This document shows positions 10,901 to 44,123 of a stretch of 64,000 nucleotides of DNA, piece by piece (within the stretch, counting starts at the first letter, position 1; each line of letters starts with the position of its first letter). The notes under the pieces were generated by a model. That model did no database searches and was not told the DNA's origin. It was given only the letters and a program-made list of their open reading frames with translations. The position numbers and the translations under genes are program-made. The stretch is from Propylenella binzhouense (GTDB lineage: Bacteria > Pseudomonadota > Alphaproteobacteria > Rhizobiales > Afifellaceae), in NCBI RefSeq assembly GCF_009866965.1, contig NZ_SPKJ01000002.1, forward strand, positions 1-64,000, read 5' to 3'.

Positions 10901-10927
10901 GACGCTATAGCTGCCGCGTCCTTACAC
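10901..10927 (-). promoter_or_regulatory. ECF-type promoter-like signal for the ppsA operon
   Basis: Read on the minus strand: GTGTAAGGA at the -35 position, then CGTC 17 nt after GTGTAA, then TAAGGA 2 nt further. The CGTC ends 80 nt before the ppsA start. The same layout precedes glgA and the GH65 fusion gene, including an 11-base identity with the glgA copy. The rest of the 320-bp gap between ppsA and the phospholipase D gene shows nothing else I can name. Confidence 0.6.
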
Positions 10928-11141
10928 TTGCAGCGACACCGGGGTGCTCTCGGACGCACCTCGGCCCATGAAGGGCCTAGCGGCTGGAAACCAGCAGCGC
11001 CTAGCGACACAAGACCCCTTCCCGAGTGCGAGTGCGATTCGAGGAACTGCCGTTCTGTCGTTTGAATTCTGACGGATCATGCCGTCCTGAGGCACGGGCC
11101 AAGGTCGACCATTGCGCGCGTGGCAAGCAGGACATTTCGTG

Positions 11142-12347
11142 ATGAGGATTGGAAACAGCGGCCCAGATCTCCTCGGAGGACGCGGCACCCGCGAACGTCA
11201 AGACCCGCAGAGACAGGCGGAGATTGCCCGTGATCTCGCCTTGATCTGCTTGCCTAGCCTTCGCGAGGGGCGGGGCGCTTTCCATCTCTTTGTGGAGGGC
11301 GACGATCTCTACGACGCAATGATTGCGGCAATTGATCGAGCCGAGCATCACATCCGCATGGAATCCTTCATCTTCGCGGCTGACGAGGTCGGACAACGGT
11401 TCGCATCTGCCCTTGGCCGCAAAGCCCGCGCTGGATTGGACGTACGTCTCCACCTCGACAGCTTCGGCTCCGCTTTCCGAGGGTTCCGGGACCTGCAGCG
11501 CGAGCTTGAAGGCGCGGGCGTGCGGTTCCAGTGGTTCCATCCCTTCCGACTCAGCCGTCCGCTCCAGTATCGTCAGCGCAACCATCGCAAGCTCCTTGTG
11601 GTCGACGAGCGGGAAGCGTTCCTGGGTGGCTTCAACATCCGGCGCTTGAACTCGCGCGCGCTCCACGGGGAAACACGCCAACGCGACAGCCATGTGCGCG
11701 TAGCCGGCGAGCTTGCGCCGCTGGCCGCTGTCTTGTTTGATCGGCTCTGGCACGACCACGGACAGCCTCGCGCTGAGGCTATTCCCGAAGACATGACGGG
11801 CCTGGAAGCCCTGCTCGTGCCCAGCTATTCCCACCACTGCCAGCAGCGGCTCGCCTGCCTACACGCGGGCCTGATCGAGAGCGCACGCCGGCACGTATAT
11901 CTCACCTCGCCGTACTTCGGACCGGGTACGATCGTTGAGGCTGCGCTGCGGGCCGCCGCCGGGCGGGGCGTCGACGTGCGCCTTCTGGTACCTCGCCGGG
12001 GCGATCCGCCAGCAGCAGGCTGGGCGACCCGCGCTGCCTACGAGCCGCTTCTCGCTGCAGGCGTGCGGATCTACGAGTACCTGCCGCGCAAGCTCCACGC
12101 CAAGACGTCTGTCATTGACGAGGAGTGGGCCGTCGTCGGGTCGGCGAACCTCGACTATCTCAGCCTGTTCCTAAACCAGGAGCTGGTCTTGATCGCCCGA
12201 GACCGCACCCTGGCCGAGGCGCTGCGGGTCCAGTATCAACGGGATCTCGAGTGCACGGCGGAAGTGAGCCTGCACCAGTGGCGCCGCCGCAGCTGGAGGA
12301 GCCGCGGTCTCGAGCTAATGGGCTGGGTGGCGCGCCGGCTGCTGTGA
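11142..12347 (+). CDS. Phospholipase D-family protein, cardiolipin synthase-like
   Basis: A 401-residue protein with two PLD domains. The first HKD motif is HRKLLVVDEREAFLGGFN (about 148-165) and the second is LHAKTSVIDEEWAVVGSANLD (about 317-337), so both catalytic His/Lys/Asp sets are present. It lacks the N-terminal membrane anchors of classical ClsA, so it resembles ClsB/soluble cardiolipin synthases that join phosphatidyl groups on the membrane face. A TTG 30 nt upstream is an alternative start. It is transcribed away from ppsA. Substrate is inferred from the family. Confidence 0.85.
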   Translation: MRIGNSGPDLLGGRGTRERQDPQRQAEIARDLALICLPSLREGRGAFHLFVEGDDLYDAMIAAIDRAEHHIRMESFIFAADEVGQRFASALGRKARAGLDVRLHLDSFGSAFRGFRDLQRELEGAGVRFQWFHPFRLSRPLQYRQRNHRKLLVVDEREAFLGGFNIRRLNSRALHGETRQRDSHVRVAGELAPLAAVLFDRLWHDHGQPRAEAIPEDMTGLEALLVPSYSHHCQQRLACLHAGLIESARRHVYLTSPYFGPGTIVEAALRAAAGRGVDVRLLVPRRGDPPAAGWATRAAYEPLLAAGVRIYEYLPRKLHAKTSVIDEEWAVVGSANLDYLSLFLNQELVLIARDRTLAEALRVQYQRDLECTAEVSLHQWRRRSWRSRGLELMGWVARRLL

Positions 12348-12379
12348 ACGAGGTGGAGAGGTCAGGCAGCCGGCAACCT

Positions 12380-13165: not shown

Positions 13166-13356
13166 CTTGCTCTTCCTCCGTTCAGGTGTTTCAAGGCGAG
13201 ATTCCGGAAGAGGGCCCGTGCAGAGGCCGGCATGAACCACCAGCCCCGTTTTCCAGTGTCCGCTGCACAGGGCAGGCGCAGCAGCGGCTTTCGAACCGCT
13301 GCACACCTCCCGCCAGCTCCTACCGTTCGGCCGCCAAGGGCGCGGCCGCGCCAGCA

Positions 13357-14001: not shown

Positions 14002-14028
14002 GACGCACTCGTTGCCTAGTTGTTACAC
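14002..14028 (-). promoter_or_regulatory. ECF-type promoter-like signal for the EF-hand gene
   Basis: On the minus strand GTGTAA is followed after 17 nt by CGTC, 133 nt before the EF-hand protein start. The GTGTAA overlaps the last codons and the stop (GTG TAA) of the GH65 fusion gene, so the EF-hand gene would have its own promoter inside the end of its upstream neighbour. Confidence 0.5.
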
Positions 14029-17000
14029 CTCCACTTGGCTTTCACCGGCCAGGCTTGCCGGGCCTCGCTGGGGGCGCCAGCCGCCGTCCTCAAGGTGGCA
14101 AGGGATATCGAGACGGGCACCCGCGCCGAATGGATAGGTCTCGTCGCGGACCGTGATCCGGCCTGGTCCGGCCCAGCCGTCGAGGGCCGAGACGATCATC
14201 CGCTCGCAGCCGATGTCGATCTGCAGCCAGTACTGCCGATAGCGGATGCGAAAGCGCAAGCCCTTCAGCTCCTGCGGCAGGCAGGGGTTGAGGCGCAGCA
14301 CGTCGCCGCGGATCTCCAGACCCGTCTGGCCGCGCTGGACGAGGTCGACCGTGCCGGCCATGGCGCCGAGATGGATGCCCTCCGGCGTCGTGCCACCCTG
14401 CACGTCGGCGATGTCGCTCTCCAGCGCCTGCTTCAGCAGCGCCCAGGAGCGCGCCCGGTCTGAGCGCGCCAGCACCCAGGAATGGACGATCCCGCTCAAT
14501 GTGGAGCCATTTGAGGTGCGCTGGAGATAGTACTCCACCGTGCGCGGGATCAGGTCGGGGTCGAAGGGGAAACCAAGCCTCGCGAACAGGGAGCCGAGCT
14601 CCTCCGAGGAAAAGAGGTAGAAGAGCATCAGGGCGTCGGCCTGCTTGGAGGCTTTATAGCGGTTCACCGTGTCGCCTTCCGCCTCCAGGATGCGGTCGAG
14701 GCGGTGGATGTCGCCGTACTTCTCGCGATAGCCGGCCCAGTCGAACTCCTCCAGCCGCTCATAGCCCTCGAACTGACTCATCACGCCGTCGTGGAACGGC
14801 ACGAACATCGTCCGACTGATCTCCTCCCAGCGGGCGATCTCCTGCGGCCCGAGGGCGAGGGTCTCGTCCAACTCGGCGCGACGCTCCGGGTCGAGCAGCG
14901 TGCGCGCGTCCAGCGCCCGCAGCAGCACCCAGGCCGCCATGACGTTGGTGTAGGCGTTGTTGTCGAGGCCGGGCGCCTCGGCCCAGGGATAGCGGTCGTG
15001 GAACTCGTCCGGGCCCATCACGCCGCGGATCTCGTAGCGGCCGCGCTCGGGGTTGAAGGCGGCAATGCTGGCCCAGAAGCGGGCGATCTCGAACAGCATC
15101 TCGGCGCCGTAGAAGGCGAGGAACTCGCGGTCTTCGGTCGCCTCGTAGTAGCGCCAGACGTTGTAGGCGATGGCGGCGTTGACGTGGCGCTGCAAATGCG
15201 TGTTGTCAGGCAACCAGCGGCCGGACTTCGGGTTGAGGTGGAGGATCTGCGTCTCCTCGCGCCCGTCGCTGCCGCTCTGCCACGGGTACATCGCACCGCG
15301 ATAGCCCGCCGCGCGCGCCAGCTGCCGCGCCGCCGGCAGGCGGCGGTGGCGGTAGCGCAAGAGCGCGCGGGTCAGCTCGGGGATGCGCAGGTTGAGGAAC
15401 GGGAAGATGAACAGCTCGTCCCAGAAGATGTGGCCGCGATAGGCTTCGCCGTGCAACCCGCGCGCCGGCACGCCGGCGTCGAGTTCGACGGTGTTGAAGG
15501 AGACCGTCTGCAACAGGTGGAACACGTGCAGCCGCAGGATCATCTGCGTGCGTGGGTGGCCCTCCAGCACCAGGTCGCAGCGGCGCCACAGATGCGACCA
15601 CGCCAGGACGTGGCCGGCCAGGAGAGCGCCGAAGCGCCCGGCGGCATGCAGTGTCTGCTCGGCGGCGATTCCTGGTTCCGACATGGCGCGGTCGCGGGAG
15701 GTGTGCAGGGCAACGACCTTTTCGACCGCGACCGACTGCCCTTCGGCCACAGCGAAAGAGAGCGCATGGGCGATATAGCCCTCCTCCTGCCGGATCTGCC
15801 GCTCGGCCTCGACCGGCCCCCCGCCCGCGAACACGTTCGTCCGTGCGGCCTGGGCAATCCGGATATGCGACTGGCTGGTTTCGACGATCAGCAGGATGCC
15901 GTCACCGCCGATCTCTCGCGCTTCGAGCGGGACGAGGTGCTTGCCGTTGAGCTGGCGATAACGGGGCACGCCGGCGTTGATGACGCGCCCGTCGAGAGCG
16001 GAGAGGACTTCGATCCGCCCCGACCAGTTCTCGGGCGTCAGCGTCCATTCGATTGCGGCGAGGTGCGGCGCGCCCATGTGCACGACGCGCCGGCCGACCA
16101 ATGTCGTCTCCCGCCCTTGGCGGTCGCGCACGCGCATCGCGCGCCGCAGCACCCCCTGCTTCAAATCCAACTCCTGGCGGTAGGAGAGGATCTCGGCCGC
16201 CAGCAGATTGAGCCAGTCTCCGCCTTCCGGCCGGAAGGTGAGGGGCAGCCAGTTCGGCAGGTTGACGAGGTCCTCGTTCTCGATCACCCGCCCGGCGATC
16301 TCCGTCTCGATGCGGTTGTAGCCGCCCGCGAGGTAGGTGCCCGGATAATGGATGTCGTCGGCCTCCGCCTCCTCGGCGGCGCCGCGCGTGGCGAAATAGC
16401 CGTTGCCCAGGGTGCATAGCGCCTCGCGCAGCCCCTCACGGTCCGGCTCGAAGCCGTCGTAGCGAAGCGTCCAGTCGGTCGTCGCGCCGTCCAGCATGGC
16501 GGCCAGCTCGCCCAAAAAGCGGGCCGCCTCCTCGGTGTCGGACAGAACGTAATGCGCGACGGTCGGCTGCGGCGCCTCGGCGATGAGGATGCCGATGCCG
16601 CGGTTGGCAAGGGCGGCGAAGGCGTCCTCGTCGGTATCGTCATCGCCGAGATAGAGGGGCAGCACGTCCTCGTGGTCGAGCCCAAGCGCTGCCAGCAGCC
16701 ACAGCACTGCTTTCCCCTTGTCCCAGTCAAGGCGCGGTCGCAGCTCGAAGACCTTCTTGCCGGTGGTCCGGCGCAGCTCCGGGGTCTCGGCGGCGACAGT
16801 CGCGACGGCGGCATCGACACGCGGCACCTCGTCATCGGCGACCAGGCGGTAGTGGACTGCGATAGCAAACTTCTTGCGCTCGACCAGCGCGCCGGCGGCG
16901 CCGGCCAGCTCCCGGCGCAGCCGCTCTTCCGCCCGGTCGAGCGCCGGCAGGAACTCGGCGGCGCGCTCATGCTCCTTGCGCAAGCCGCCCGGTCCGGCGA

Positions 17001-18066
17001 TGTCGAAGCCGTGGCTGCCGGCATAGACGAGGCCGTCCAGCCCGACCAGCCGTTCGACCTCGGCGCGGTCGCGGCCGCTGACGATGGCCACCGTGCAGCG
17101 CTCCGCTAGCGCCTGCACGACGGCGCGCATCGCATCGGAGAGCACGGCGAGGTCGGGCCGGGCGACGATCGGGGTCAGCGTGCCGTCATAGTCGAGGAAG
17201 ACGGCCGGACGCCTGCCGGCAAGGCGGGCCCGGATCTCGGCGGCGCGCGCGAGCGCGTTTGGGAGCGCAGCCGCACCGGGACGCAGCTTGGCGTCGTCGC
17301 AAAGCTCGGCAAGGTCGCCGACCACGATGTCGGCGCCGTTGGCCCGCAGCACGGCGCCGTCGCCGGCGCGGGCAACGCCGATGACCAGCCCAAACCCGCC
17401 GGCCCTGCCAGCCGCGACCCCGGCGATCGCGTCCTCGACGACCGCCGCCCGCGCCGGATCGACGCCGAGACGCTGCGCCGCCTCGAGAAAGGTCTCCGGG
17501 TGCGGCTTCCCTCTGAGGCCGAGGCGCGCCGCCTCCACCCCGTCGACCCGCACCTCGAACAGGTCCGATAGGCCTGCCGATTCGAGGACCGCCGTCGTGT
17601 TCTTGCTGGACGATACGAGCGCCACCCTCACGCCTCGCGCTTGAAGGTGGCGAATGAAAGCGACCGAGCTCTCGAACACCTCGACGCCACCTTGCGCCAG
17701 CAGCTCTTGGAAGATCGCGTTCTTGCGGTTGCCGAGGCCGCAGACCGTCTCCGCCTCGGACGGGTCGGCGGGATCGCCATAGGGCAGGGCGATGCCGCGC
17801 GATTCGAGAAAGCTGCGTACCCCCTCGTAGCGCGGCTTGCCGTCGACGAAGCGCTGGTAGTCTCCCTCGGCGTCAAACGGCCGGAAGGGCTCCCCCTGCT
17901 GCGCCGCCCGCCGCCCGAGATAATCGTCGAAGAGCTGCTTCCAGGCGGCGGCATGGAGGCCGGCCGTGCGCGTCACCACGCCGTCGAGATCGAATATGAC
18001 GGCGTTGAGAGCGCTCTTGTCTCGCGCAGTCAGCTGGGCGTGGGTCATCGACATTCGTGCCTTCAT
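14023..18066 (-). CDS. Fusion of beta-phosphoglucomutase, trehalose-phosphatase and GH65 glycoside phosphorylase
   Basis: A 1347-residue three-module enzyme. Residues about 20-245 are a HAD beta-phosphoglucomutase (FDLDGVVTRTAGLH, VSSSKNTTAVLE, GKPHPETFLEAA). Residues about 285-530 are an OtsB-type trehalose-6-phosphate phosphatase (FLDYDGTLTP at 290-299, GDDDTDEDAF near 474). Residues about 540-1347 are a GH65 phosphorylase/hydrolase with the catalytic Glu in GVMGPDEFHD (about E1021). Together they could dephosphorylate trehalose-6-P, split trehalose (or maltose/kojibiose) with phosphate and isomerise beta-glucose-1-P to glucose-6-P. GH65 specificity cannot be read by eye. An ATG at 18054, better spaced from AAGG, is an alternative start. 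Confidence 0.93.
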   Translation of the reverse strand: MKARMSMTHAQLTARDKSALNAVIFDLDGVVTRTAGLHAAAWKQLFDDYLGRRAAQQGEPFRPFDAEGDYQRFVDGKPRYEGVRSFLESRGIALPYGDPADPSEAETVCGLGNRKNAIFQELLAQGGVEVFESSVAFIRHLQARGVRVALVSSSKNTTAVLESAGLSDLFEVRVDGVEAARLGLRGKPHPETFLEAAQRLGVDPARAAVVEDAIAGVAAGRAGGFGLVIGVARAGDGAVLRANGADIVVGDLAELCDDAKLRPGAAALPNALARAAEIRARLAGRRPAVFLDYDGTLTPIVARPDLAVLSDAMRAVVQALAERCTVAIVSGRDRAEVERLVGLDGLVYAGSHGFDIAGPGGLRKEHERAAEFLPALDRAEERLRRELAGAAGALVERKKFAIAVHYRLVADDEVPRVDAAVATVAAETPELRRTTGKKVFELRPRLDWDKGKAVLWLLAALGLDHEDVLPLYLGDDDTDEDAFAALANRGIGILIAEAPQPTVAHYVLSDTEEAARFLGELAAMLDGATTDWTLRYDGFEPDREGLREALCTLGNGYFATRGAAEEAEADDIHYPGTYLAGGYNRIETEIAGRVIENEDLVNLPNWLPLTFRPEGGDWLNLLAAEILSYRQELDLKQGVLRRAMRVRDRQGRETTLVGRRVVHMGAPHLAAIEWTLTPENWSGRIEVLSALDGRVINAGVPRYRQLNGKHLVPLEAREIGGDGILLIVETSQSHIRIAQAARTNVFAGGGPVEAERQIRQEEGYIAHALSFAVAEGQSVAVEKVVALHTSRDRAMSEPGIAAEQTLHAAGRFGALLAGHVLAWSHLWRRCDLVLEGHPRTQMILRLHVFHLLQTVSFNTVELDAGVPARGLHGEAYRGHIFWDELFIFPFLNLRIPELTRALLRYRHRRLPAARQLARAAGYRGAMYPWQSGSDGREETQILHLNPKSGRWLPDNTHLQRHVNAAIAYNVWRYYEATEDREFLAFYGAEMLFEIARFWASIAAFNPERGRYEIRGVMGPDEFHDRYPWAEAPGLDNNAYTNVMAAWVLLRALDARTLLDPERRAELDETLALGPQEIARWEEISRTMFVPFHDGVMSQFEGYERLEEFDWAGYREKYGDIHRLDRILEAEGDTVNRYKASKQADALMLFYLFSSEELGSLFARLGFPFDPDLIPRTVEYYLQRTSNGSTLSGIVHSWVLARSDRARSWALLKQALESDIADVQGGTTPEGIHLGAMAGTVDLVQRGQTGLEIRGDVLRLNPCLPQELKGLRFRIRYRQYWLQIDIGCERMIVSALDGWAGPGRITVRDETYPFGAGARLDIPCHLEDGGWRPQRGPASLAGESQVEV

Positions 18067-18129: not shown

Positions 18130-18156
18130 GACGCGCCGCAGCCCGTCTGGTTACAC
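18130..18156 (-). promoter_or_regulatory. ECF-type promoter-like signal for the GH65 fusion gene
   Basis: Minus strand: GTGTAACC, 17 nt from GTGTAA to CGTC, then TAAGGA 2 nt later, ending 64 nt before the start codon. The layout, including the trailing TAAGGA, copies that of ppsA. The remaining intergenic DNA up to 18277 shows no other feature. Confidence 0.6.
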
Positions 18157-23271: not shown

Positions 23272-23298
23272 GACGCCGCACGCGCACGCAAATTACCC
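23272..23298 (-). promoter_or_regulatory. Weak ECF-type promoter-like signal upstream of the SDR
   Basis: Minus strand GGGTAA, 17 nt, CGTC, ending 111 nt before the SDR start. The -35 half differs from the common TGTAA form, and GTAA-N17-CGTC alone is expected about once by chance in this window, so this site is only suggestive. Confidence 0.25.
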
Positions 23299-24306: not shown

Positions 24307-25944
24307 TCACAACACGACCGTGAGGAGCAGGGCCACGATGCCCGCCGCTAGGCAGTAGTAGAGCATCGGCGCGAGCGTGAAGCGGATGATCGTTCCTTCC
24401 TGGCGAAGCAGGCCGACCACCGCCGCCGCCGCGACGACGTTGAGCACCGAGATCATGTTCCCCGCGTTGGCGCCGAGCATTTGCGCCGCCAGCACGACGG
24501 TGTCGGGGATTGCGGCGCGCTCGGCGGCGCCGAGCTGGAACAGCGCGAACATCATGTTGCTGAAGGTGGCGCTGCCCGACAGGAAGGCGCCGAGGGCGCC
24601 GACGAACGGGGCCAGCAGCGGCCAGCCGGCGCCGACCCAGTCAGCCGCGACCGTCGCCAGCTCCATCGGCATGCTGCCGAGGCCGGCCTGGTTGACGCCG
24701 GAATGGATGAAGATGCGCACCATTGGCACGGCTGTGCCCAGCGCCAGCGCGCTGGCGGCGAGGGCGAGACCCGTCTCGCGTAGCGCGGTGCCGGCCTGGC
24801 GGGCGCCCATCCCCTGCAGGGGGATGGTGGCCAGCACGACGACGACGAACACGGTCCCTGGCAGGTAGAGCGGTGCGAGCGAGACGGCGACCCCGGTGCC
24901 GAGAATTCCCGTCCAGGAGATCATCGCGGCCTGCAACCACTGCTTCAGCGGCAGGAACTCGACGCGGGTCGCGACCAGCAGGAGGGCCAGCAGCAGATAG
25001 GGCGCCCAGGCGCGGCCGAGCGGCATTCCGGGGGCCGGCGCGGCGGCGGGCCGATCATCCCCGCCCCGCGGCGGCAGGCGCGGCGGGAGCAGCAGCCCTT
25101 TGCGCGCGACCGGCACCACCACCGCGAGCCCGACCAGGGCGCCGATGAGCGAGGGGAACTCCGGCCCGAGCAGCACTGCCACCCCGAGCGCCGGCAGGGT
25201 GAAGGCGAGGCCGGCGAACATAGCGAAGCGCCAGGCGCGCAGCCCGTCCCGCCAGCTCCGCCGCGGATCGAAGAAGCGGGTCAGCACCAGCACCAGGATC
25301 AGCGGGATGAAGCTGCCGACGAACAGGTCGATGGTGATCGCCTGCACCGCCACAGACCGAAGAAAATCCGATAAGGATGCGTCGCCGATCACGTCGGCCG
25401 CGGCAGGGGCGAGATCGCCGCCCTCCTGCAGCCCCTGGGCGAGGCCGACCACGACCGGCGTGCCGATGGCGCCGAACGACACCGGACTGCTGTCGGCGAT
25501 CAGGGCGAGCACGACAGCGGCCATCGGCGCGAAGCCGAGCGCCACCAGCAGCGGCGCGGTGATCGCCGCCGGAGTCCCAAACCCGGCTGCCCCTTCGAGG
25601 AAGGCGCCGAACAGCCAGGCGATCAGGATCACCTGGGCGCGCGGATCGGGGGTGATGCGCTTGAACCCGCCGCGGATCGCCGCCATCGCGCCGCTCGCCG
25701 TCAGGGTCTTCAGCAGCAGGATGGCGCCGAACACGATCCACAGGATCGACGCCGCGATCACCACCCCCTCGATCGCCGCTGCGAGCACGTGCCGGACGGA
25801 AACGCTCCAGACGACGATGCTCACGGTGGCAGTGAGGGCGAGGCTGATCGGCATCGCTTGGGCGGCCGGCAGGCGCAGGACCACCAGCAGGCCGAGGACG
25901 GCGAGCAGGGGCGTCAGCGCGGCCAGAATTAATGGTGCGGACAT
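24307..25944 (-). CDS. lctP: L-lactate permease (LctP/LldP family)
   Basis: A 545-residue polytopic membrane protein of the lactate permease family, a proton symporter for lactate and glycolate. Family features are [44 protein letters not shown], and near the end [22 protein letters not shown] and [17 protein letters not shown]. Length matches the family. It is divergent from pfkB across a 375-bp gap that carries one ECF-like signal facing each gene. With the dehydrogenase at 7388 it makes a lactate-handling pair. Confidence 0.94.
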
Positions 25945-26039: not shown

Positions 26040-26066
26040 GACGCTCAAGGGTGCGCCCGGTTACAG
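26040..26066 (-). promoter_or_regulatory. ECF-type promoter-like signal for lctP
   Basis: Minus strand CTGTAACC with CGTC 17 nt after CTGTAA, ending 96 nt before the lctP start. It sits back to back with the pfkB-facing site at 26171 in the same intergenic region. Confidence 0.55.
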
Positions 26067-26170: not shown

Positions 26171-26197
26171 GCGTAAGGATGGGCAGCCTGTTACGTC
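26171..26197 (+). promoter_or_regulatory. ECF-type promoter-like signal for pfkB
   Basis: Plus strand GCGTAAGGA with CGTC 17 nt after GCGTAA, 122 nt before the pfkB start. The -35 half has CGTAA in place of TGTAA but keeps the following GGA seen at ppsA and glgA. Nothing else recognisable is in the 375-bp gap. Confidence 0.4.
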
Positions 26198-26319
26198 TTT
26201 TTGCTGTTGGCCCTCCTTTGCAGCGCTACGCGGTTGGCGACGCTTTGCCACAGCCGAGGGCTGCTCTGCCTTGCCTCGCACAGCTGTTCCGTTGAGCTTT
26301 GAACCAGAGGAGTTGCGCC

Positions 26320-27273
26320 GTGAAACCGATCGTAACGCTGACTTTGAACCCGTCGGTCGACGGCTCGGCCCAAGCGGAGGTGGTTCAGCCAATCCGAAAG
26401 GTCCGGACAACCGACGAACGGTATGATCCGGGCGGCGGCGGGATCAACGTGGCGCGGGTCGTCCAGGAACTCGGCGGCACGGCGCTCGCGGTCTATATGG
26501 CTGGCGGGGCCACTGGCGGCGTGCTCGACGAACTCTTAGATTCCGCAGCAATTCCGCGGCGGCGCATTGCCATCGGGGATCACACCCGTATCAGCCACGC
26601 CGTCTACGAACGGTCGAGCGGCCTCGAATACCGGTTCGTCCCCGAAGGTCCGTTGCTGAAGGAGTCCGAATGGCGGGCGTGTCTGGATGCGCTCGAGGAC
26701 CTCGACTGCGACTACCTCGTGGTCAGTGGCAGCCTGCCGCGCGGCGCTCCGGACGACTTCTATGCCAGAGTCATCGATGTGACCGACCGAAAAAAGGTGA
26801 AACTGGTCCTGGACACCTCCGGCCGGGCGCTCCGCCCTGCACTTGAGCGCGGCGTCCACCTGGTCAAGCCCAGCCTCGGGGAGTTCGAAGCGCTGGTCGG
26901 ACGGCAGCTGCCCCAGCCGGCGCTCCAGGAGGAGGCCGCGCGGGAGCTGGTACGAACGGGAGCGAGCGAAATGCTGGCCTTGACCATGGGCCGCGACGGC
27001 GCGCTGCTCGTCACCGCGGACAGCGCCCTCCGGCTGTCCGCCCCCGCAGTGCCGGTGAAGAGCGCCGTCGGCGCCGGCGACAGCTTCGTCGCGGCGATGA
27101 CGCTTGCGCTCGCACAGGGGCGCTCGTCAGAAGATTCGTTCGCATACGGCACGGCCGCGGGAGCCGCCGCCGTGATGTCGCCCGGAACCGAACTGTGCCG
27201 GCGGGAAGACGTCGAGCGCCTCTACGATGAGATGAAGAGGATCAGCGTGCCGTCCTCGATCGCAAGCGGCTGA
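26320..27273 (+). CDS. PfkB-family sugar-phosphate kinase (phosphofructokinase type)
   Basis: A 317-residue ribokinase-fold kinase of the 1-phosphofructokinase/6-phosphofructokinase-2 group. It has TLTLNPSVDGSAQ at the N-terminus, the GGGGINVARVVQELGG substrate loop and the catalytic signature GAGDSFVAAMTLALAQG (Asp base). It phosphorylates fructose-6-P, fructose-1-P or tagatose-6-P; which one cannot be told here. The GTG start is chosen because AGAGGAG lies 8 nt upstream. In this setting it would feed glycogen- or trehalose-derived sugar phosphate into glycolysis. Confidence 0.92.
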   Translation: MKPIVTLTLNPSVDGSAQAEVVQPIRKVRTTDERYDPGGGGINVARVVQELGGTALAVYMAGGATGGVLDELLDSAAIPRRRIAIGDHTRISHAVYERSSGLEYRFVPEGPLLKESEWRACLDALEDLDCDYLVVSGSLPRGAPDDFYARVIDVTDRKKVKLVLDTSGRALRPALERGVHLVKPSLGEFEALVGRQLPQPALQEEAARELVRTGASEMLALTMGRDGALLVTADSALRLSAPAVPVKSAVGAGDSFVAAMTLALAQGRSSEDSFAYGTAAGAAAVMSPGTELCRREDVERLYDEMKRISVPSSIASG

Positions 27274-27946: not shown

Positions 27947-28663
27947 ATGCCTGCATTGTCATGCAACCAATTTCCTGCCTCCGAGACGGCTGCCCTCGAT
28001 GACACGGTAAGCCGGCGACTGTCCGAGTGCCGGGGGGAGTTCTTCCGTTTTTTCCGCCGCCGCCTCGACCGGCGCGAGGACGCCGAGGATGCCTTGCAGG
28101 ATTTCTGCCTGAAGGTCATCCGCGCGGCACGGAAGCCCGATCACCACGAAAAGATCGATGCCTGGCTCGGCCGCATTCTGCGCAACACGCTGACCGACCA
28201 CTATCGGCGGCGCGCCGCGCGCCAGCGGGCCGAAGCCGCCTATCGGCGCGAGATCGAAGGCACGGTGTCGGAGGTCGACGCGGATCAGGACGGACTGCCG
28301 TGCTGCTGCCTCCACGATGCACTGCCGACGCTCAGGCCGGATTACGCCGAGATCTTGCGGCGCGCTGATCTCGACGAAGAGCCGCGCGAGCGGATTGCCG
28401 CCGACCTCGGGCTCACCGCCAACAATCTCGGGGTGCGCCTGCATCGGGCGCGGCGCGCCCTCAGGAAGAAGCTTGAGGACTGCTGCCCGACTTGCCGCGA
28501 TGGCGGCTTCGGTGACTGCAGCTGCGACGCGGCGCGCGAGAACGACGGCCCGACTCCTTGCGCCGGCGGGCGTAATGGCAACGCTGCCGCTGCGTCTGTA
28601 TCGGAGACGGCTATCCGCCCCGCCTCCGGCTCGGTGGTCGGCTCGAACGCGGCGCTTCCATGA
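27947..28663 (+). CDS. ECF sigma factor with C-terminal cysteine-rich domain (CorE/ECF44-like)
   Basis: A 238-residue ECF sigma factor. Region 2 is at about 25-90 (RRLDRREDAEDALQDFCLKV) and region 4 at about 125-175 (PTLRPDYAEILRR, then LGLTANNLGVRLHRARRAL). Cys119/121 form a CxC in the linker, and Cys180/183 plus Cys191/193 form CxxC-x7-CxC just after region 4. The second sigma gene (36464) has the same cysteines at the same spacing. In Myxococcus CorE-type factors such cysteines sense copper or other metals without an anti-sigma factor, and none is seen here. A polar tail of about 40 residues follows. Metal identity is inferred. Confidence 0.88.
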   Translation: MPALSCNQFPASETAALDDTVSRRLSECRGEFFRFFRRRLDRREDAEDALQDFCLKVIRAARKPDHHEKIDAWLGRILRNTLTDHYRRRAARQRAEAAYRREIEGTVSEVDADQDGLPCCCLHDALPTLRPDYAEILRRADLDEEPRERIAADLGLTANNLGVRLHRARRALRKKLEDCCPTCRDGGFGDCSCDAARENDGPTPCAGGRNGNAAAASVSETAIRPASGSVVGSNAALP

Positions 28664-30485: not shown

Positions 30486-32036
30486 CTACGCCCTTCCGGG
30501 CCGCGCTCGCAGCGGAGTAGACAGTCGCGTGGGATCTTCGCCCGGTTGCGCAGCGCGCCGGCGCTCCGATTCTCCTGATCCGAACGCAGCGCGGCTTCCG
30601 ACGAGCGACCGGTAAAGTGCAAGATATTGCTCGGCTGGCTTCTGCCATCCAAAGTCCTGCCGCATGGCATTGCGTTGCATCCGGCGCCATGCGAGGGGCT
30701 GCTGGAAGCCGGTCAGGGCGCGCTCCAGACCGGCCAGCATCTCCTCCAGAGACTCGCCGGAGAAGGCAAAGCCCGTCGCATTGCGCTCGTTCCGGGCGGA
30801 GCTGTCGACCACGGTGTCAGCCAGCCCGCCGACCGCCCGGACCACCGGCAGGGTCCCGTAGCGCATGGCGTAGATTGGGACGAGGCCGAAAGGTTCGAAG
30901 CGCGACGGATGCAGCAGGATGTCGCATCCGGCCAGCAGACGTCGGGCGCATCGTTCCTCGTAGCCGATCCGCACCGCGACGCGGCCGGGATAACGCTCCG
31001 CCAGAGTCAGCAGGCGGCTCTCCAACCCCCGGTCGCCCTGCCCGTGCAAGGCGAGCTGGGCGCCGGCCCCGACGAGCCACGGCACGGCCTCGGCGACCGT
31101 GTCGGCCATCTTTTGTTCGGTCAGGCGGCTCAGGAAGGCGACGACGGGCGTATCCGGTTCGACGGCGAGGCCGAGCTCGCGCTGGAGAGTTTCCTTGCAG
31201 ACGCGCTTGCCGCCGGTCTCGGCCAGATTGTACCGCCGGGGCAAAGTCGGATCATTGGCAGGATCCCAGACGCCGTAATCGGCTCCGTTCGGAATACCGG
31301 CGAGATGCCCGGCCCGGTGACGGAGCAGGCCATCGAGACCGCAGCCGAATTCCGGCGTCTGTATCTCGCGCGCGTAGGTGTGGCTGACCGTTGTCAGACG
31401 ATCCGCGTAGCGGATTCCCGCCTTCAGGAAGGAGATCCGGCCATGGAACTCGATCCCATCCGGCGAGAAGCACTCCGCCGGGATGCCCAGGCGCGGCAGC
31501 CGGTCGGCACCAAACAGCCCTTGGAAGGCGAGGTTATGGATCGTGAAGACGCTTGCCGGACGTTGCGCGGAGTGGTGGTCGAGCAGCAGCGGCACCAGCC
31601 CCGCATGCCAGTCGTTTGCGTGGACGACGTCCGCGCGCCAATCCAGCCCCAGCTCGCCTTGCGAGACCCGCGCGGCAGCACGGCTCAGCAGACAGAATCG
31701 CACGTCGTTGTCGGGCCAGTCGCGACCATCCGGGTCCTGGTACGGTCCACCCGCTCGGCGATAGAGCGGGGGACAGTCGATCAGCAAGAGCGGCAGATCG
31801 GAACCGGGGCTTCGGGCGGGGAGGAGCCGCGCCGGACCTGCGCCCGGCACCTCACCGAGCGGAACCGCACTGCCGAGATGGACCGCGCAGTCCATGACCT
31901 CGGGATAGCCGGGAAGCATTACGCGGATGTCGAGACCGAGCTCGCTCAGTGCAGCCGGGAGGGCGGCCGAGGCGTCGGCGAGTCCGCCCGTCTTGACCAG
32001 GGGGTAGAATTCGGAGGTGACGAACAGGACCCGCAT
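30486..32036 (-). CDS. glgA: Glycogen synthase (GT5, ADP-glucose)
   Basis: A 516-residue GT5 glycogen synthase that transfers glucose from ADP-glucose to the glycogen chain. The N-terminus has the ADP-glucose motif KTGGL (residues 15-19) in FVTSEFYPLVKTGGLADA. Further motifs are DVVHANDWHAGLVPLLL, FTIHNLAFQGLF and the C-terminal GT-B site SRFEPFGLVPIYAMRYGTLPVV...GGLADTV. I start at MRVLF with AGGAAA upstream. glgB and glgC are not in the window. An ECF-like signal lies 104 nt upstream, and a divergent one faces the other way. Confidence 0.94.
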   Translation of the reverse strand: MRVLFVTSEFYPLVKTGGLADASAALPAALSELGLDIRVMLPGYPEVMDCAVHLGSAVPLGEVPGAGPARLLPARSPGSDLPLLLIDCPPLYRRAGGPYQDPDGRDWPDNDVRFCLLSRAAARVSQGELGLDWRADVVHANDWHAGLVPLLLDHHSAQRPASVFTIHNLAFQGLFGADRLPRLGIPAECFSPDGIEFHGRISFLKAGIRYADRLTTVSHTYAREIQTPEFGCGLDGLLRHRAGHLAGIPNGADYGVWDPANDPTLPRRYNLAETGGKRVCKETLQRELGLAVEPDTPVVAFLSRLTEQKMADTVAEAVPWLVGAGAQLALHGQGDRGLESRLLTLAERYPGRVAVRIGYEERCARRLLAGCDILLHPSRFEPFGLVPIYAMRYGTLPVVRAVGGLADTVVDSSARNERNATGFAFSGESLEEMLAGLERALTGFQQPLAWRRMQRNAMRQDFGWQKPAEQYLALYRSLVGSRAAFGSGESERRRAAQPGEDPTRLSTPLRARPGRA

Positions 32037-32139: not shown

Positions 32140-32167
32140 GACGTTCGAGCCAGGCTCGTCCTTACAC
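32140..32167 (-). promoter_or_regulatory. ECF-type promoter-like signal for glgA
   Basis: Minus strand GTGTAAGGACG, CGTC 18 nt after GTGTAA, then TTAGGA 2 nt later. GTGTAAGGACG is identical over 11 bases to the ppsA copy. It ends 104 nt before the glgA start. A short inverted repeat (GTCCT-AA-AGGAC) overlaps the CGTC end. Confidence 0.6.
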
Positions 32168-32253: not shown

Positions 32254-32280
32254 GTGTAACGAGGGCGCAAGCTGTGCGTC
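32254..32280 (+). promoter_or_regulatory. ECF-type promoter-like signal, divergent from glgA
   Basis: Plus strand GTGTAAC with CGTC 17 nt after GTGTAA. It is followed 20 nt later by a start codon with GGAGGTG upstream (see 32301). Apart from this pair of signals and the short open frame, the 464 bp between glgA and the DUF411 gene hold nothing I recognise. Confidence 0.5.
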
Positions 32281-32300: not shown

Positions 32301-32390
32301 ATGTCGGACGATGATCCGAAACATGCGACATCAGGTATAAGCGTCCACCAAACGAGCCGTATGGCGTTCACGGAAAAATCGAGAACTTAG
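32301..32390 (+). other. Possible micro-ORF or truncated copy of an ECF sigma 5' end
   Basis: A 29-codon frame (starting MSDDDPKH) has a good ribosome site (GGAGGTG, 5-6 nt) and the ECF-like signal 20 nt upstream. Promoter, spacing, ribosome site and the first codons resemble those of the sigma gene at 36464 (MSDDPER); after that the similarity stops. It may be a promoter-proximal scrap of a duplicated sigma gene, a leader peptide, or chance. Confidence 0.3.
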
Positions 32391-34671: not shown

Positions 34672-34697
34672 GTGTAACCCAGGCATCCAGAGACGTC
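34672..34697 (+). promoter_or_regulatory. ECF-type promoter-like signal facing the insertion sequence
   Basis: Plus strand GTGTAACC with CGTC 16 nt after GTGTAA. No gene follows before the insertion sequence at 35059, so it is either a leftover promoter whose gene is gone or chance. Confidence 0.3.
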
Positions 34698-35520: not shown

Positions 35521-36359
35521 AGGCGGTGACCGAGACCCTCGGCGTCGCCCGCTCGAACGTCGTCGAGCGCGTGAAGGCGGCTCGGCCGAAGCGCGGCCCC
35601 CAGATCCGCGAGGGCGATCTGGAGCTCACGGCCGACATCCGGCGCCCCGTCGACGAGAGGCCGACCTACGGGTACCGGCGGATCGCCGCGCTTCTCAGGC
35701 GCGAGCGGCGGACCGCCGAAGAGCCGTCCGTCAACGCGAAGCGCGTCTACCGGCTGATGAAGAAGAACGGGCTGCTCCTCGCCCGGCACAGCGGGCGCCG
35801 CTTGGCACGGCGGCACGAGGGAGAGGTCGCGACGCCGCGTTCGAACATCCGCTGGTGCTCCGACGCGCTCGAGTTCTCGTGCTGGAACGGCGAGGTGGTG
35901 CGCGTCGCCTTCGCGCTCGACTGTCACGACCGCGAGGTCATCGGGTGGACGGCGACAACCGCCGGCATCTCGGGCGAGATGATCCGCGACATGATGGTCG
36001 AGTGCGTCGAGACCAGGTTCGGCTCGCCACGGGCGCCGGAGCGCATCCAGTGGCTGACCGACAATGGCTCGACCTACGCCGCGGCGAAGACGATCGACAT
36101 GGCGCTCGCGCTGAACCTCGAGCCCTGCTTCACGCCCGTCGAGAGCCCCGAGAGCAATGGTCTCGCCGAAGCCTTCGTGAAGACGTTCAAGCGCGACTAC
36201 GTCCGCGTGAACCCGATCCCCGACGCGGCGACCGCCATCGCCGCCGTCAGGGACTGGATGGAGGACTACAACACCGTCCATCCTCACAGCCGGCTCGGAT
36301 ATCGCTCGCCCCGCGAGTACCTCCGGGCCATGTCGCAGCCTACCGCGTGTCCGGTCTGA
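35517..36359 (+). CDS. IS2-group transposase OrfB (DDE catalytic part)
   Basis: A 280-residue frame starting at a GTG overlapping the orfA stop; the functional protein is probably the OrfAB fusion made by -1 frameshifting near 35475. It matches IS2 InsD: RPTYGYRRIAALLRRE, NAKRVYRLMKKNGLLL, and the catalytic triad in WCSDALEF (Asp), WLTDNGSTY (Asp) and SPESNGLAEAFVKTFKRDY (Glu), ending HPHSRLGYRSPREYLR. All three acidic residues are present. Confidence 0.93.
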   Translation: MKAVTETLGVARSNVVERVKAARPKRGPQIREGDLELTADIRRPVDERPTYGYRRIAALLRRERRTAEEPSVNAKRVYRLMKKNGLLLARHSGRRLARRHEGEVATPRSNIRWCSDALEFSCWNGEVVRVAFALDCHDREVIGWTATTAGISGEMIRDMMVECVETRFGSPRAPERIQWLTDNGSTYAAAKTIDMALALNLEPCFTPVESPESNGLAEAFVKTFKRDYVRVNPIPDAATAIAAVRDWMEDYNTVHPHSRLGYRSPREYLRAMSQPTACPV

Positions 36360-36416: not shown

Positions 36417-36443
36417 ATGTAAGAACTTGACAAGCCCCGCGTC
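36417..36443 (+). promoter_or_regulatory. ECF-type promoter-like signal for the second ECF sigma gene
   Basis: ATGTAAG with CGTC 17 nt after ATGTAA, 20 nt before the sigma start codon. The sigma gene thus seems to carry the same signal as its supposed targets, which points to autoregulation. It lies 44 bp downstream of the insertion sequence end, so the promoter itself was spared. Confidence 0.55.
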
Positions 36444-36463: not shown

Positions 36464-37120
36464 ATGTCTGATGATCCGGAACGCGCTGGCGAGGCAGAGA
36501 GCGAGCCGAAAGGAGCTACGTTGCGGGCGGACGCTGCCGTGCGCCGAGCTCTCGTGGAAAGTCGCTGTCAGATGCTCGGCTTCCTTCGGCGGCGGCTGGG
36601 GAGCGCGGAAGAAGCGGAAGACGTGCTTCAGGCCTTCATGCTTCGGGCGCTCGAGCGCTCGGCCGAGCTGCGCGACGTGCGGACGGTCCGCGGCTGGTTA
36701 AGCCGGATCCTTGCCACGACCATCGTCGACCATCAGCGTCGCGCCGCCAGACGGCGGCAGCGGGAGGCGGTCATGAGCCCTGACGATCTCGAAGCCTTGT
36801 CGATCGAGCCCGATGCCGAGCTGGACGAGGCGGTCTGCAACTGCCTTTACAAGCTCCTTCCAACGATAAAGCCGGAATATGCCGAGGTGATCTGGCGGAT
36901 CGACCTGCTGGGAGAGCCACGGGACCGTGTGGCCGCAAGCCTCGGCGTTAGCTTGAACAACATCACCGTGAGGCTGCACCGCGGTCGGCAGGCGCTGAAG
37001 AAGCGGTTGGAGGAGATGTGCGAGATCTGCCCGGTGCACGGCTTTCTCGACTGCCGCTGCGAGGAGGCGGAGCGCGCCCGCCGCCAGCGCGAGGAAGCGG
37101 CTGCTGCCTTGGACCTGTAA
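36464..37120 (+). CDS. ECF sigma factor with C-terminal cysteine-rich domain (CorE/ECF44-like)
   Basis: A 218-residue ECF sigma factor, paralogue of the one at 27947. Region 2 is LGFLRRRLGSAEEAEDVLQAF and region 4 is LPTIKPEYAEVIWRIDLLGE to NNITVRLHRGRQALKKRL. Cysteines: CxC (Cys125/127) in the linker, CxxC (186/189) and CxC (197/199) in the tail, the same spacing as in the paralogue. No anti-sigma gene follows. I start at the second ATG because GGAG directly abuts the first one (36458). Its promoter carries the ECF-like signal. Probably metal-responsive; copper is inferred from the downstream P1B ATPase. Confidence 0.88.
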   Translation: MSDDPERAGEAESEPKGATLRADAAVRRALVESRCQMLGFLRRRLGSAEEAEDVLQAFMLRALERSAELRDVRTVRGWLSRILATTIVDHQRRAARRRQREAVMSPDDLEALSIEPDAELDEAVCNCLYKLLPTIKPEYAEVIWRIDLLGEPRDRVAASLGVSLNNITVRLHRGRQALKKRLEEMCEICPVHGFLDCRCEEAERARRQREEAAAALDL

Positions 37121-37141
37121 TGCGGGAGACCTTGCCGCGTC
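37115..37141 (+). promoter_or_regulatory. ECF-type promoter-like signal for the metal-ATPase operon
   Basis: CTGTAA (its last three bases are the sigma gene stop codon), 17 nt, CGTC, 105 nt before the Cys-rich peptide gene that opens the P1B ATPase operon. Confidence 0.55.
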
Positions 37142-37585: not shown

Positions 37586-39994
37586 TTGCAGACAGTGACG
37601 CTTGAGGTCGGCGGCCTCTTCGAAGAGCTCGATCATCTTGGTGTCGAGAAGCAGCTCAACGGAGAGAAGGGCGTCATTAGGGCAAGCGCCAACCCTGCCT
37701 CCGGCAGCGTCACGGTCGATTATGACGAGGCGGTGACGAGCGCCGAGGCACTGCGGAGGACGGTGAAGTCCTGCGGCTTCCGCTGCCGCGGTAAGGTGGT
37801 GCCACGACACGTCTGCAGACCAGACAGCGCCACAGTGCCGCCGCAGACCCCGACGCACTGTGGACATGCCCAAACGTCGAGAACCGGCGCACCGGGGCCA
37901 GGCGCTTCGACGCGCCAGGCCTCCGCGCCTGCGCATGACGAAATGGCGCACGAGATGGGCCATGACGTCGGCATGGACATGCAGGACATGGTCCGCGACA
38001 TGCGGAACCGCTTCTGGATCGCGCTCGTCTTTACAATCCCGATCTTCGTCTATTCGCCGATGGGCGGGATGTTCACCCCGCCGGCGCCGCCCTTTGGCCT
38101 TGACCTCGACCTCTGGCTGTTCTTCCTCGCCAGCGCCGCAGTGCTCTATCCGGTCTGGCCGTTCGTGGTCGCCGCCTGGCGGGCGCTCAAGAACGGCGTG
38201 CTCAACATGGCCGTCCTCGTCGTGCTCTCCGTCGGCACCGGCTACATCTTCAGCGTCGGCTCGACCTTCTTCTTCCCCGGCGTGCAATTCTATGAAGCCG
38301 TTGCGGTGCTGCTGGTGTTCATCCTGCTCGGCCACTGGCTGGAGATGCGGGCGCGCGCCGGCGCCTCGGCGGCGATCCGGGCGTTGCTCGATCTCGCTCC
38401 GCCGATGGCCACCGTGCTGCGCGACGGCCGCGAGGTCGAACTGCCCACCGCCGAGGTTCAGGCCGGCGACACCGTCGTCATTCGGCCGGGCAACAAGATC
38501 CCGGTCGACGGTGAGATTATCGAGGGCGAGTCCCTCGTCGACGAGTCGATGCTCACCGGCGAGTCCATGCCGGTGCAGAAGGCGCCGGGCGACGAGGTGA
38601 TCGGCGCCACCATCAACAAGAGCGGCAGCTTCAAGTACCGGGCCACCAAGGTGGGCGCCGACACGGCGCTGGCGCAGATCGTCAAGCTGGTGCAGGAGGC
38701 GCAGAACTCCAAGGCGCCGGCCCAGCTCCTCGCCGACAAGGCCTCCCAATGGCTGGTGCTGATCGCGATTGTCATCGGTCTAGTCACCTTCGCCGTGTGG
38801 TTCTGGTGGATCGGCGAGCCGCTGCTGTTCGCGCTGACCCTCACCATCACGGTCTTCGTCATCGCCTGCCCTGACGCGCTCGGGCTCGCGACCCCTATGG
38901 CGGTGATGGTCGGCACCGGGCTCGGCGCCACGCACGGCATCCTGTTCAAGAACGCGAGCGCGCTCGAGGAAGCGACCAAGCTCGACGTCATCGTCTTCGA
39001 CAAGACCGGCACGCTCACCATGGGCCAGCCCAAGGTCGTCGAGGTCGTGCCGGCGCCCGACCGCACAGAAGATGACGTGCTGCGTGCGGCGGCGGCGGTT
39101 GAGCGCGGCTCCGACCACCCGCTCGCCCTGGCGATCGTCGAGCGCGCCGAAAGTCTCGACGTCCCTGAGACGCGCGCTTTCCTCAACCTCGAAGGCAAGG
39201 GCGCACGCGCGGAGATCCGTGGTCGCACAGTGCTGATCGGCAATCGCCGCCTCATGGACGACGAGCGGGTCGACCTCGGCGGCCTCGCTGACGAGGCGGA
39301 ACGGCTGAAGGGCGCCGGTCGCACCGTGGTCCATGTCGCCGAAGGCGGCGTTGCTGCCGGTCTGATCGCCATTGCCGACGCGCCACGACCGTCGGCGGCC
39401 AGGACGCTCGCGGCCCTGCGCCAGCGCGGGCTACAGGTTGCGATGCTGACCGGCGACAATGCCGGCACGGCAAGACGGATCGCGGAGGAGCTCGGCGGCA
39501 TCGATATCGTGCTGGCCGATGTGCTTCCCGGCCAGAAGGCCGAGAAGGTCAAGGAGCTACAAGCCCAGGGCAAGCGCGTCGGCATGGTCGGCGACGGCGT
39601 CAACGATGCGCCGGCGCTGACGCAGGCCGATGTCGGCTTCGCCATCGGCGCCGGCACGGACGTGGCGATGGAGAGCGCCGACGTGGTGCTGATGAAGAGC
39701 GATCCCTACGACGTGGTCGGCGCCATCGAGCTTTCGCGCGCCACCCTGCGCAAGATGCGCCAGAACCTGTTCTGGGCGGTCGCCTACAATGTCGTCGCCT
39801 TCCCGATGGCGGCCGGCGTCTTCTATCCCCTGGTGATCAGCCCCGAGGTCGCGGCCTTGGCGATGTCGGGCAGCTCGGCGCTGGTCGCCGTCAACGCCCT
39901 ACTCCTGAAGCGCACGCGCCTGGAAGGGATCGGTCGCGCCGATGCCCCGCCGCCGGAACTGGCCACCACCGAGCCCGTCGGAGCAGCAGCGTGA
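37586..39994 (+). CDS. P1B-type heavy-metal ATPase with CPD motif
   Basis: An 802-residue metal pump. Residues 1-70 look like an HMA fold whose CxxC is missing (GGLFEELD where GMTCxxC is expected), followed by a His/Met-rich segment ([19 protein letters not shown]). About eight membrane segments follow, with actuator [16 protein letters not shown] (CPD at 428-430 in place of CPC or CPH), DKTGTLT (Asp472), HP locus [10 protein letters not shown] and [16 protein letters not shown]. The CPD variant leaves the exported metal uncertain; copper is favoured by the neighbours. The TTG start is supported by AGGAGG 6 nt upstream. A GTGA overlap links it to the next reading frame. Confidence 0.93.
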
Positions 39995-40886: not shown

Positions 40887-40908
40887 GCCACCGAACGAGA
40901 GATCCGCG

Positions 40909-41583: not shown

Positions 41584-41592
41584 AGCCGGAAC

Positions 41593-43499
41593 ATGAAACG
41601 CGAGCACCAGATCAACTTCTGGTACGTCATCGCTGCGACTCTCGCGGTCATCTGGATCCAGCAACTGCTTTTCCAGCCGACCCACATCAAGACGATCCCC
41701 TACAGCGAATTTCAGCGGCTCGTCGACTAGGGCAAGGTCACCGACGTCGTCATCGGCCCCGACCAGATCACCGGCACCTACAAGACGCCGGAAGGCCAAG
41801 CCGCGCCGCAGGAAGGCCAGCCGCAGCATTTCAGGGCGGAGCGCGTGCCGCAGGACTTGGCCGAGTCCTTGGCCAGCAAGGGTGTTTCCTTTTCCGGTCA
41901 GGCGGGCCCGGGCCTTCTACAGAGCGTGCTGAGCTGGCTCATGCCCATGCTGGGCTTCGTTCTGCTCTGGATGTTCTTGGTCAAGCCGATGGCGATGGGC
42001 CACGGGGCCGGGCTGATGACTATCGGCAAGTCCAAGGCCAAGGTCTATGTCGAGAAGGACACGAAGGTCACCTTCGCCGACGTGGCCGGCGTCGACGAGG
42101 CGAAGGACGAGCTCCGAGAGATCGTCGCCTTCCTCAAGGACCCCCAGGGGTATGGCCGGCTCGGTGCGCGCATGCCGAAGGGCGTGCTGCTGGTGGGACC
42201 GCCGGGAACCGGCAAGACCCTTCTGGCTCGGGCCGTTGCGGGCGAGGCCGGCGTGCAATTCTTTTCGATCTCAGGCTCCGAGTTCGTCGAGATGTTCGTC
42301 GGCGTTGGCGCCGCCCGCGTCCGCGACCTCTTCGAGCAGGCGCGCAAGCAGGCGCCCGCGATCATTTTCATCGACGAGCTCGATGCGCTCGGACGTGCCC
42401 GTGGCGCGATGCTACCGGGCGGCGGTCATGACGAGAAGGAGCAGACGCTCAATCAGCTCCTGACCGAGATGGACGGCTTCGATCCGAGCGTCGGCACCGT
42501 CTTGCTGGCGGCGACGAACCGCCCGGAGATCCTCGATCCGGCCCTGCTGCGCGCCGGACGCTTTGATCGCCAGGTGCTGGTCGACAGGCCCGACAAGCAG
42601 GGCCGTGTCGATATCCTGAAAGTCCACCTGCAGAAGGTGAAGCTGGCGCCGGGTGTCCCCGTGGAGGAACTGGCGGCGCTCACGCCCGGCTTCACCGGAG
42701 CCGATCTGGCAAACCTGGTCAACGAGGCTGCGTTGCTGGCGACGCGCCGCGCCGCGGAGAGCATAGAGCTGGAGGACTTCACGCAAGCGATCGAGCGCAT
42801 CGTTGCCGGCCTCGAGAAGAAGAACCGCCTGCTCAACCCGCACGAGCGAGACGTGGTCGCCCATCACGAGATGGGACACGCTTTGGTGGCGATGGCCCTG
42901 CCGGGCGTAGACCCGGTGCAGAAGGTCTCGATCATCCCCCGCGGCGTCGCGGCTCTCGGCTACACGATCCAGCGGCCGCTCGATTCGAGGACCGCTTCCT
43001 GATGGACCGGAATGAGCTGATGAACCGCATGGCCGTCCTCCTCGGCGGGCGGGCGGCCGAAAGCCTGGTCTACGACGAAGTGTCAACCGGCGCGGCCGAC
43101 GACCTTGTGAAGGCCACCGACATCGCGCGGAGCATGGTGGCACGGTTCGGCATGGACCCGAAGCTGGGGCAGGTCGCTTATGAGACGGATGCTGCGCCCT
43201 TCCTGGGAGGGCCGGGCGGAGCGAGTTGGCAGCCGCGGCGCTACGGCGAGGAAACCGCGTCGGGGATCGATGCTGCCGTTCGCGAGCTGGTCGAGACGGC
43301 GTTCCAACGCGCCGTCTCGATCCTTACGGCGAACCGAGACCTGCTCGGCCGTGCGGCGGAAAGCCTGCTACGCCGGGAGACGCTCTCATCGCAAGAGCTG
43401 GAGACGATCGGCCGATCCGTGATTCGTGACGCGGCGGACCGGGCAGCGGTGCCATCCGGCGTCGGCTGGGCCGCAGCCACTGCGGTCCCGCAGAGATGA
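41593..43499 (+). pseudogene. ftsH: Disrupted FtsH-like AAA+ zinc metalloprotease
   Basis: Homology to FtsH runs over the whole interval but is broken twice. The frame starts MKREHQINFWYVI and stops at an in-frame TAG (41728-41730), where FtsH has a residue before [11 protein letters not shown] to TAG is the simplest change. The AAA+ part is then intact: [46 protein letters not shown] and the zinc site HHEMGHA. Near 42972-42984 the frame changes within IQRPL/EDRFL because of about 5 extra bases (an imperfect TCGAT-TCGAG repeat). The C-terminal protease part then follows in another frame. Sequencing error could explain either lesion, less easily both. Confidence 0.85.
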
Positions 43500-43556
43500 A
43501 GGTCGCGGAGTCGAGGAAGCGAGCCTCGCTCGTGCTTTGGGCCTCGACGATCCAAC

Positions 43557-44123
43557 TCATTTCATTAAACTTGGTGATCGTGCGCTGACGGCCTCGGGCA
43601 GGAGCCCAAAGTGGCCGGCGATGCCAGCCAAAGAAGTCGATAGCGCTACCGGATCCTCATCCGTCCCGATGCGCGTGGCGCGCCGGAACAGCATGCCCGC
43701 CGAGGGGCCGACCCGCTCGCGCGCCATCTTGCGACCGAGAAGCAGCATCTGAGCATCTGACTGGAGGCGACCCCGAGCAACCATCGCCCCATGGCTGGGA
43801 AGTCGCTCAGGCGCTGTCCGAGGCTCCTGCGGAGAGCCTGCGGCAGCGCACGCGCGTGACCGTCTCGGCGCTCTGCCATGTGCAGCGATGCGCCAAGGAG
43901 GAGGCCGAGAAAATCGTTTGCCGTGCAGGAACCCGGTGATCCGCTGCCGGCCATCGGCCGGCAGCTTGTCGGCCCTTACCGGTGCCCCTCGAAGCCAAGC
44001 ATCGCCCATCTGTCGTAAGCCCCGCCGCAGCGCAGTGACCCGCTTCTCATCTGTAAGAGATCGGCTGCTCACGCGTCTCTTCTGGTAACCGCGCCTGCGT
44101 ACGGAGCTTGCGTCCGAACGCAA
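43557..44123 (-). other. Doubtful minus-strand region, possibly a decayed gene
   Basis: A 188-codon open frame runs here, but residue patterns that look protein-like hop between the three minus-strand frames (RQRITGFLH in one, TANDFLGLLLGASLHMAE in the next, SDAQMLLLGRKMARERVGPSAGML in the first again). It might be a frameshifted phasin-type or other helical protein. I cannot assign a family with confidence, and the ECF-like signal at 44051 overlaps its 5' part on the other strand. Confidence 0.2.
44051..44077 (+). promoter_or_regulatory. ECF-type promoter-like signal for the YHS-to-pgm operon
   Basis: CTGTAAG with CGTC 17 nt after CTGTAA. The next supported plus-strand gene is the YHS protein at 44390, about 310 nt away; a doubtful short frame lies between. 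The downstream genes overlap or follow closely as far as 52834. Confidence 0.45.

Follow-up and report, generated by a model that had tools for sequence, protein, structure and literature searches.

CorE of Myxococcus xanthus, an extracytoplasmic function (ECF) sigma factor with a C-terminal Cys-rich domain, is the founder of the former ECF44 group (PMC3107203, PMC8999054), most members of which are now placed in ECF238 (PMC8999054). Four Cys residues of this domain (181, 184, 192 and 194) are invariant, Cys189 is the main residue for activation by copper, and P1B ATPases and a multicopper oxidase are under CorE control in the copper response (PMC3107203). A CxC linker has been defined for CorE-like sigma factors, and CorE2 of M. 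xanthus is described in the same review as responsive to cadmium/zinc, with the metal set by the arrangement of the Cys residues (PMC8999054). Alphaproteobacterial members, one of them on a plasmid of Phenylobacterium zucineum, were already named in the CorE paper (PMC3107203), and the regulator family is known. Here we analyse a stretch of 64,000 nt from Propylenella binzhouense (the window: bases 1–64000 of the 153,470-base contig NZ_SPKJ01000002.1, in a genome of 4.7 Mb), in which a 33-kb island encodes two CorE-like sigma factors, sigma1 (P0001, the second sigma gene in the window) and sigma2 (P0002, the first), and repeats one bipartite motif before genes for metal export and carbon metabolism. 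We propose, with a probability of roughly 0.85, that these genes form one autoregulated, metal-activated sigma regulon of CorE-like type that drives copper export and carbon genes on a conjugative element.

Sigma factors of the island

Judged by their sequence features, both island sigma factors are putative CorE-like metal sensors of the former ECF44 kind. Like CorE, they consist of sigma regions 2 and 4 only (PF04542 and PF08281) with a CxC linker, CNC in sigma1 and CCC in sigma2, and both end in a C-x2-C-x7-C-x-C tail (CEICPVHGFLDCRC and CPTCRDGGFGDCSC) whose Cys spacing equals that of the four invariant residues of CorE (PMC3107203); this tail is present in all full-length homologues of the loci except one sigma2-like protein. 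A further likeness is that no anti-sigma domain was found among the Pfam-scanned neighbours of the sigma genes; 5′ of sigma2 lies P0003, a protein of 125 aa belonging to no family. The resemblance extends to a P1B metal ATPase among the (here predicted) targets and, with the CorE promoter compared by description, to a promoter spacing of 16–18 nt and a conserved G in the –10 box. The design of C-terminal sensing is shared with CorE2, as the review describes that protein (PMC8999054). In contrast to CorE, there are two paralogues in a single island, on a mobile element, and many predicted targets in carbon metabolism. In a tree, sigma1 and most sigma2 proteins form two groups, while some long branches are of unsure place.

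A bipartite motif confined to the island

The initial annotation had reported TGTAA-N16-18-CGTC at ten places, with less than one expected by chance. Pattern search recovered all ten sites in the window, where dinucleotide shuffles predict 0.33, and none of 100 shuffles reached ten or more; the positions were right, apart from five starts that were off by 1 nt because the preceding n had been counted. Relatives of sigma1 were gathered and their loci (numbered with L below) scanned with the same pattern, giving 95 matches, some of them overlapping or near-copies, versus 7.7 expected. Alignment of 76 nonredundant sites, window sites included, yields the consensus TGTAA-N17-CGTC, in which CGTC is usually preceded by G and followed by T-n-W: the spacer measures 17 nt in 67 of the 76, G stands directly 5′ of CGTC in 75%, T directly 3′ in 63%, and A or T at the third and fourth positions after CGTC in 89% and 71%, respectively. 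As these letters lie outside the searched pattern, a search artefact cannot explain them. An extra (T/A)AGGA remarked on earlier behind some of the CGTC boxes is accurate as a local case of an extension that is itself general (CGTC-T-n-W-W).

Genome-wide counts were obtained by IUPAC pattern searches, and a position weight matrix (PWM), trained on relatives only with the window excluded and used at a threshold score of 16, was applied to the window, the 20 kb beyond it, plasmid regions and some of the genome matches. The whole genome contains 17 matches to TGTAA-N16-18-CGTC, 10 in the island and 7 in the remaining 4.64 Mb, and the extended form BGTAA-N17-CGTC-YNW has nine genome matches, every one of them in the island (its reversed control has five). 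The seven matches elsewhere were rejected as members of the regulon: three were followed, one lacking a close sense gene downstream and two lying inside coding-like open reading frames, and the remaining four score below 15 with the matrix. Within the window the matrix finds 12 sites of score at least 16, compared with ~0.15 per window in Markov sequence. They comprise nine of the ten sites first reported, the variants proposed at that time before pfkB (26172) and SDR (23272), and a new site at 28571. Four plasmid regions held out of training, part of whose sequence is closely related to the training loci, hold 21 matrix sites versus 0.25 expected, and the scan found no site in the 20 kb of contig beyond the window. 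Genomes of relatives that lack a clear sigma1 homologue (144 in all) hold 47 matches to a tight form of the motif versus 178 to its reversed control, with no genome exceeding four.

In other alphaproteobacterial genera related islands keep the sites before the same genes. Elsewhere, orthologues carry the site at 11 loci for the sigma gene, 8 for the P1B ATPase, 8 for the cyclopropane synthase, 3 for ppsA, 2 for glgA and 1 for GH65/otsB. In a locus of another family (L030, genome G100) the site precedes lctP, pfkB, SDR, the EF-hand gene and ppsA, which also backs the two variants of the window, and in Devosia pacifica and Martelella mediterranea the same sites stand at nearly identical offsets. 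Both boxes are the same in orthologous pairs, the named variants excepted, and the identity of flanks and spacers is mostly 0.2–0.5, close to chance; higher values are limited to a few spacers and to the coding side of the sigma-gene sites. Since other genera keep the boxes at the same genes even though the flanks are mostly unrelated, the sites are predicted to be conserved promoters.

The window starts with genes for VirB8/TrbF, TrbG and TrbI, and much of the island shows synteny, with protein identities mostly of 62–91%, to the conjugative plasmid NZ_CP030129 of Indioceanicola profundi (order Rhodospirillales). This synteny covers the trb genes, pfkB, sigma2, glgA, sigma1, DUF2933 and FtsH as well as the YHS, cyclopropane synthase, GAPDH, CBS and glgP genes, and the motif precedes the same genes; the plasmid differs in having another gene as its pgm (28% identity) and in that the stretch read contains no ppsA or GH65. 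Related islands are found on plasmids of Croceicoccus and Sulfitobacter, and a homologue on the P. zucineum plasmid is 68% identical over the aligned part. Together these comparisons show a predicted regulon that is portable, its putative promoters occurring only where the sigma travels.

Proposed regulon and alternative readings

Island confinement, the held-out plasmid sites and the conservation of the boxes all support the early suggestion that the island is one regulon read from ECF-style promoters; the type of regulator, CorE-like by sequence, was not part of that suggestion. The likelier regulator is sigma1, and sigma2 may share its sites. From the features of the family we infer a metal trigger: metal would bind the Cys-rich tail and the CxC linker of sigma1, perhaps also of sigma2, and the metal-bound sigma would gain competence for DNA with no anti-sigma factor involved, a mechanism demonstrated for CorE of Myxococcus. 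It would then join RNA polymerase, read TGTAA-N17-CGTC and boost its own synthesis, the site at 36418 being the predicted autoregulatory one. Copper export would be switched on simultaneously with genes for glycogen, trehalose, lactate/pyruvate/phosphoenolpyruvate (PEP) and triose-phosphate metabolism, and genes for membrane cyclopropanation would be induced in the same set. Such a response may serve to provide a carbon reserve and substrate-level energy during metal damage to respiration, and on a conjugative element its regulation would be retained across orders. We give even odds to the broader idea that a metal-gated sigma factor on conjugative elements carries its own kit for reserve carbon and substrate-level energy (glycogen synthesis and breakdown, trehalose, pfkB, GAPDH, PEP synthase and lactate transport), induced together with copper export. 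If true, the answer to metal stress would include, besides efflux, a transferable change in central metabolism. The consensus supplies a promoter for a large, mainly alphaproteobacterial branch, the predicted target list extends into central carbon metabolism, and the question of whether bacteria respond to metal poisoning as they would to an energy crisis becomes testable. A search of the literature, with subscription papers outside its coverage, found no prior description of the regulon content or the motif, which is weak evidence.

Several points weigh against the proposed regulon. The position of Cys189 in CorE is occupied by Phe in both sigma1 and sigma2; with this Cys absent the inducer may be a metal other than copper, and the role of copper itself is uncertain. 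The base after TGTAA varies, whereas an AAC is described for the –35 box of CorE, and the sites of sigma1 and sigma2 are indistinguishable from each other. The control for the tight motif was reversed and not dinucleotide-matched. A clade of relatives (L051–L053, L058, L060, L061 and L063) has no site at its sigma1-type gene; in the same clade a site is conserved upstream of a gene that looks, by eye, like a Crp/Fnr-type regulator. Finally, use of the sites by the sigma factors is a prediction.

The alternative that fares best, although we consider it unlikely, is a division of labour in which sigma2 reads the CGTAA variants (26172 and 28571) and sigma1 the TGTAA sites. The two variants flank the sigma2 gene and G100 retains CGTAA after its own sigma2 gene, but TGTAA stands at pfkB in L030 and L077 and at several post-sigma2 sites in relatives. 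We give little credence to the view that genuine CorE-type sites are limited to the metal and sigma promoters and that the sites at carbon genes are coincidence or relics. It has in its favour that the CorE targets demonstrated to date are copper-handling genes (PMC3107203), but the orthologues of ppsA, glgA, GH65/otsB, lctP, pfkB, SDR, the EF-hand gene and the cyclopropane synthase are boxed in other genera despite diverged flanks. Scarcely credible is that a host sigma factor reads the sites, for example EcfG, the ECF sigma factor of the general stress regulon of Alphaproteobacteria, which has a bipartite promoter and is under partner-switch control. The island genes must function in many hosts, the majority of which probably possess EcfG, but all nine extended matches of the genome lie in the island and the sites move with the sigma genes across orders; EcfG also differs from the island system in this mode of control and in its –35 box, and its promoter pattern, GGAAC-N16-18-CGTT, was rejected because the window holds no match to it. 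The presence of ten copies in 33 kb could suggest a dispersed repeat within the island, a reading with next to no chance that we rejected on the unrelated flanks in the alignments, since spacers and flanks differ and conservation is limited to the two boxes and the short extension downstream of them, in promoter orientation.

Individual sites and neighbouring genes

Sites and genes of the island are listed in Table 1.

Table 1. Sites and genes of the island; all promoters are predicted, and counterparts are sites at the corresponding genes of relatives
Feature	Position	Strand	Evidence or PWM score	Counterpart sites
sigma1 (P0001), CorE-like ECF sigma, 220 aa	36458..37120	+	Pfam sigma r2, r4; Cys motifs
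sigma2 (P0002), CorE-like ECF sigma, 238 aa, 44% identical to sigma1	27947..28663	+
Promoter of ppsA, 2-hydroxyacid dehydrogenase and isoamylase (box pair)	10901..10926	-	25.5	L030, L045, L055
Promoter of EF-hand / PRC-barrel genes	14002..14027	-	23.5	L030:11993
Promoter of HAD-trehalose phosphatase-GH65 fusion	18130..18155	-	22.3	L044:6781; L078:16747 (otsB, Croceicoccus plasmid)
SDR, GGTAA variant	23272..23297	-	17.7	L030:6855 (consensus site; SDR 90% identical)
Promoter of lctP (L-lactate permease) and EamA transporter	26040..26065	-	18.1	L030:4126
pfkB, CGTAA variant; by gene order also first sigma gene	26172..26197	+	18.5	L030:3977, L077:10671
CGTAA variant in 3′ end of first sigma gene, before beta-propeller gene	28571..28596	+	20.9	L030, L046, L048, L077, L079 (at or near end of sigma2 gene)
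Promoter of glgA, 18-nt spacer	32140..32166	-	19.0	L048:4181, L077:17852
Promoter, then remnant of sigma1 5′ end	32255..32280	+	21.4
Pattern match, probably no promoter	34673..34697	+	10.3, within null
Promoter of second sigma gene	36418..36443	+	17.6
Promoter of small Cys-rich protein and copper ATPase	37116..37141	+	24.6
Promoter of YHS, cyclopropane synthase, AarF, type II GAPDH, CBS, glgP and pgm	44052..44077	+	23.9	L077:27369, L046:15406
Isoamylase/GlgX-like and 2-hydroxyacid dehydrogenase genes	5155..8398	-	Pfam
ppsA, PEP synthase, start uncertain	8395..10866	-	Pfam
HAD/beta-PGM, trehalose phosphatase, GH65 triple fusion	14023..18066	-	Pfam, NCBIfam
lctP	24307..25944	-	Pfam
pfkB	26299..27273	+	Pfam
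glgA	30486..32036	-	Pfam, tblastn
P1B-type copper/heavy-metal ATPase	37586..39994	+	Pfam, NCBIfam
YHS, cyclopropane synthase, AarF/UbiB, type II GAPDH, CBS, glgP, pgm	44390..52834	+	Pfam

Of the sites first reported, 34673 faces no gene and 32255 faces only a remnant; the site at 28571, which had been missed, lies within the 3′ end of the first sigma gene. Behind the intact-looking promoter at 32255, ~29 codons beginning MSDDDPKHA (32301–32390) are followed by a stop, and the right flank is 52–57% identical to the sigma1 starts of relatives; with a sigma1-like start and then a stop downstream, this looks like an old promoter and start of sigma1. The match at 34673 was rejected as a promoter because its score is in the null, its spacer has 16 nt, it has no T-n-W and no gene stands between it and an insertion sequence; a chance match or a relic is probable. 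At 37116–37120 the copper-ATPase promoter includes the TAA stop of sigma1 in its –35 box, TGTAA, an overlap kept in seven other loci (L029, L043, L046, L047, L048, L050 and L077), some of which are near-identical. One of these, L048 (NZZV01000023.1), belongs to an Acidimicrobiaceae metagenome-assembled genome, an actinobacterial bin, and has sites near-identical to those of alphaproteobacterial loci; this is probably a binning error. In relatives the motif is also seen before genes that read, by eye, as polyphosphate kinase 2 (L046:7394, L069:8306 and L070:8318).

Among the genes of the island, the block from YHS to pgm is syntenic with the plasmid L077 at 75–88% identity, pgm excepted. No Rfam family and no tRNA was found in the window. 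A gene for a copper nitrite reductase (NirK, 33007–34068) lies within the island with no motif before it, and IS3-type transposase genes (35131–36359) stand directly 5′ of the second sigma promoter. The triple fusion is a single protein of 1347 aa; the Croceicoccus plasmid carries otsB and GH65 as two genes. Compared with its intact plasmid orthologue, ftsH (41593–43499) has a frameshift near 42990.

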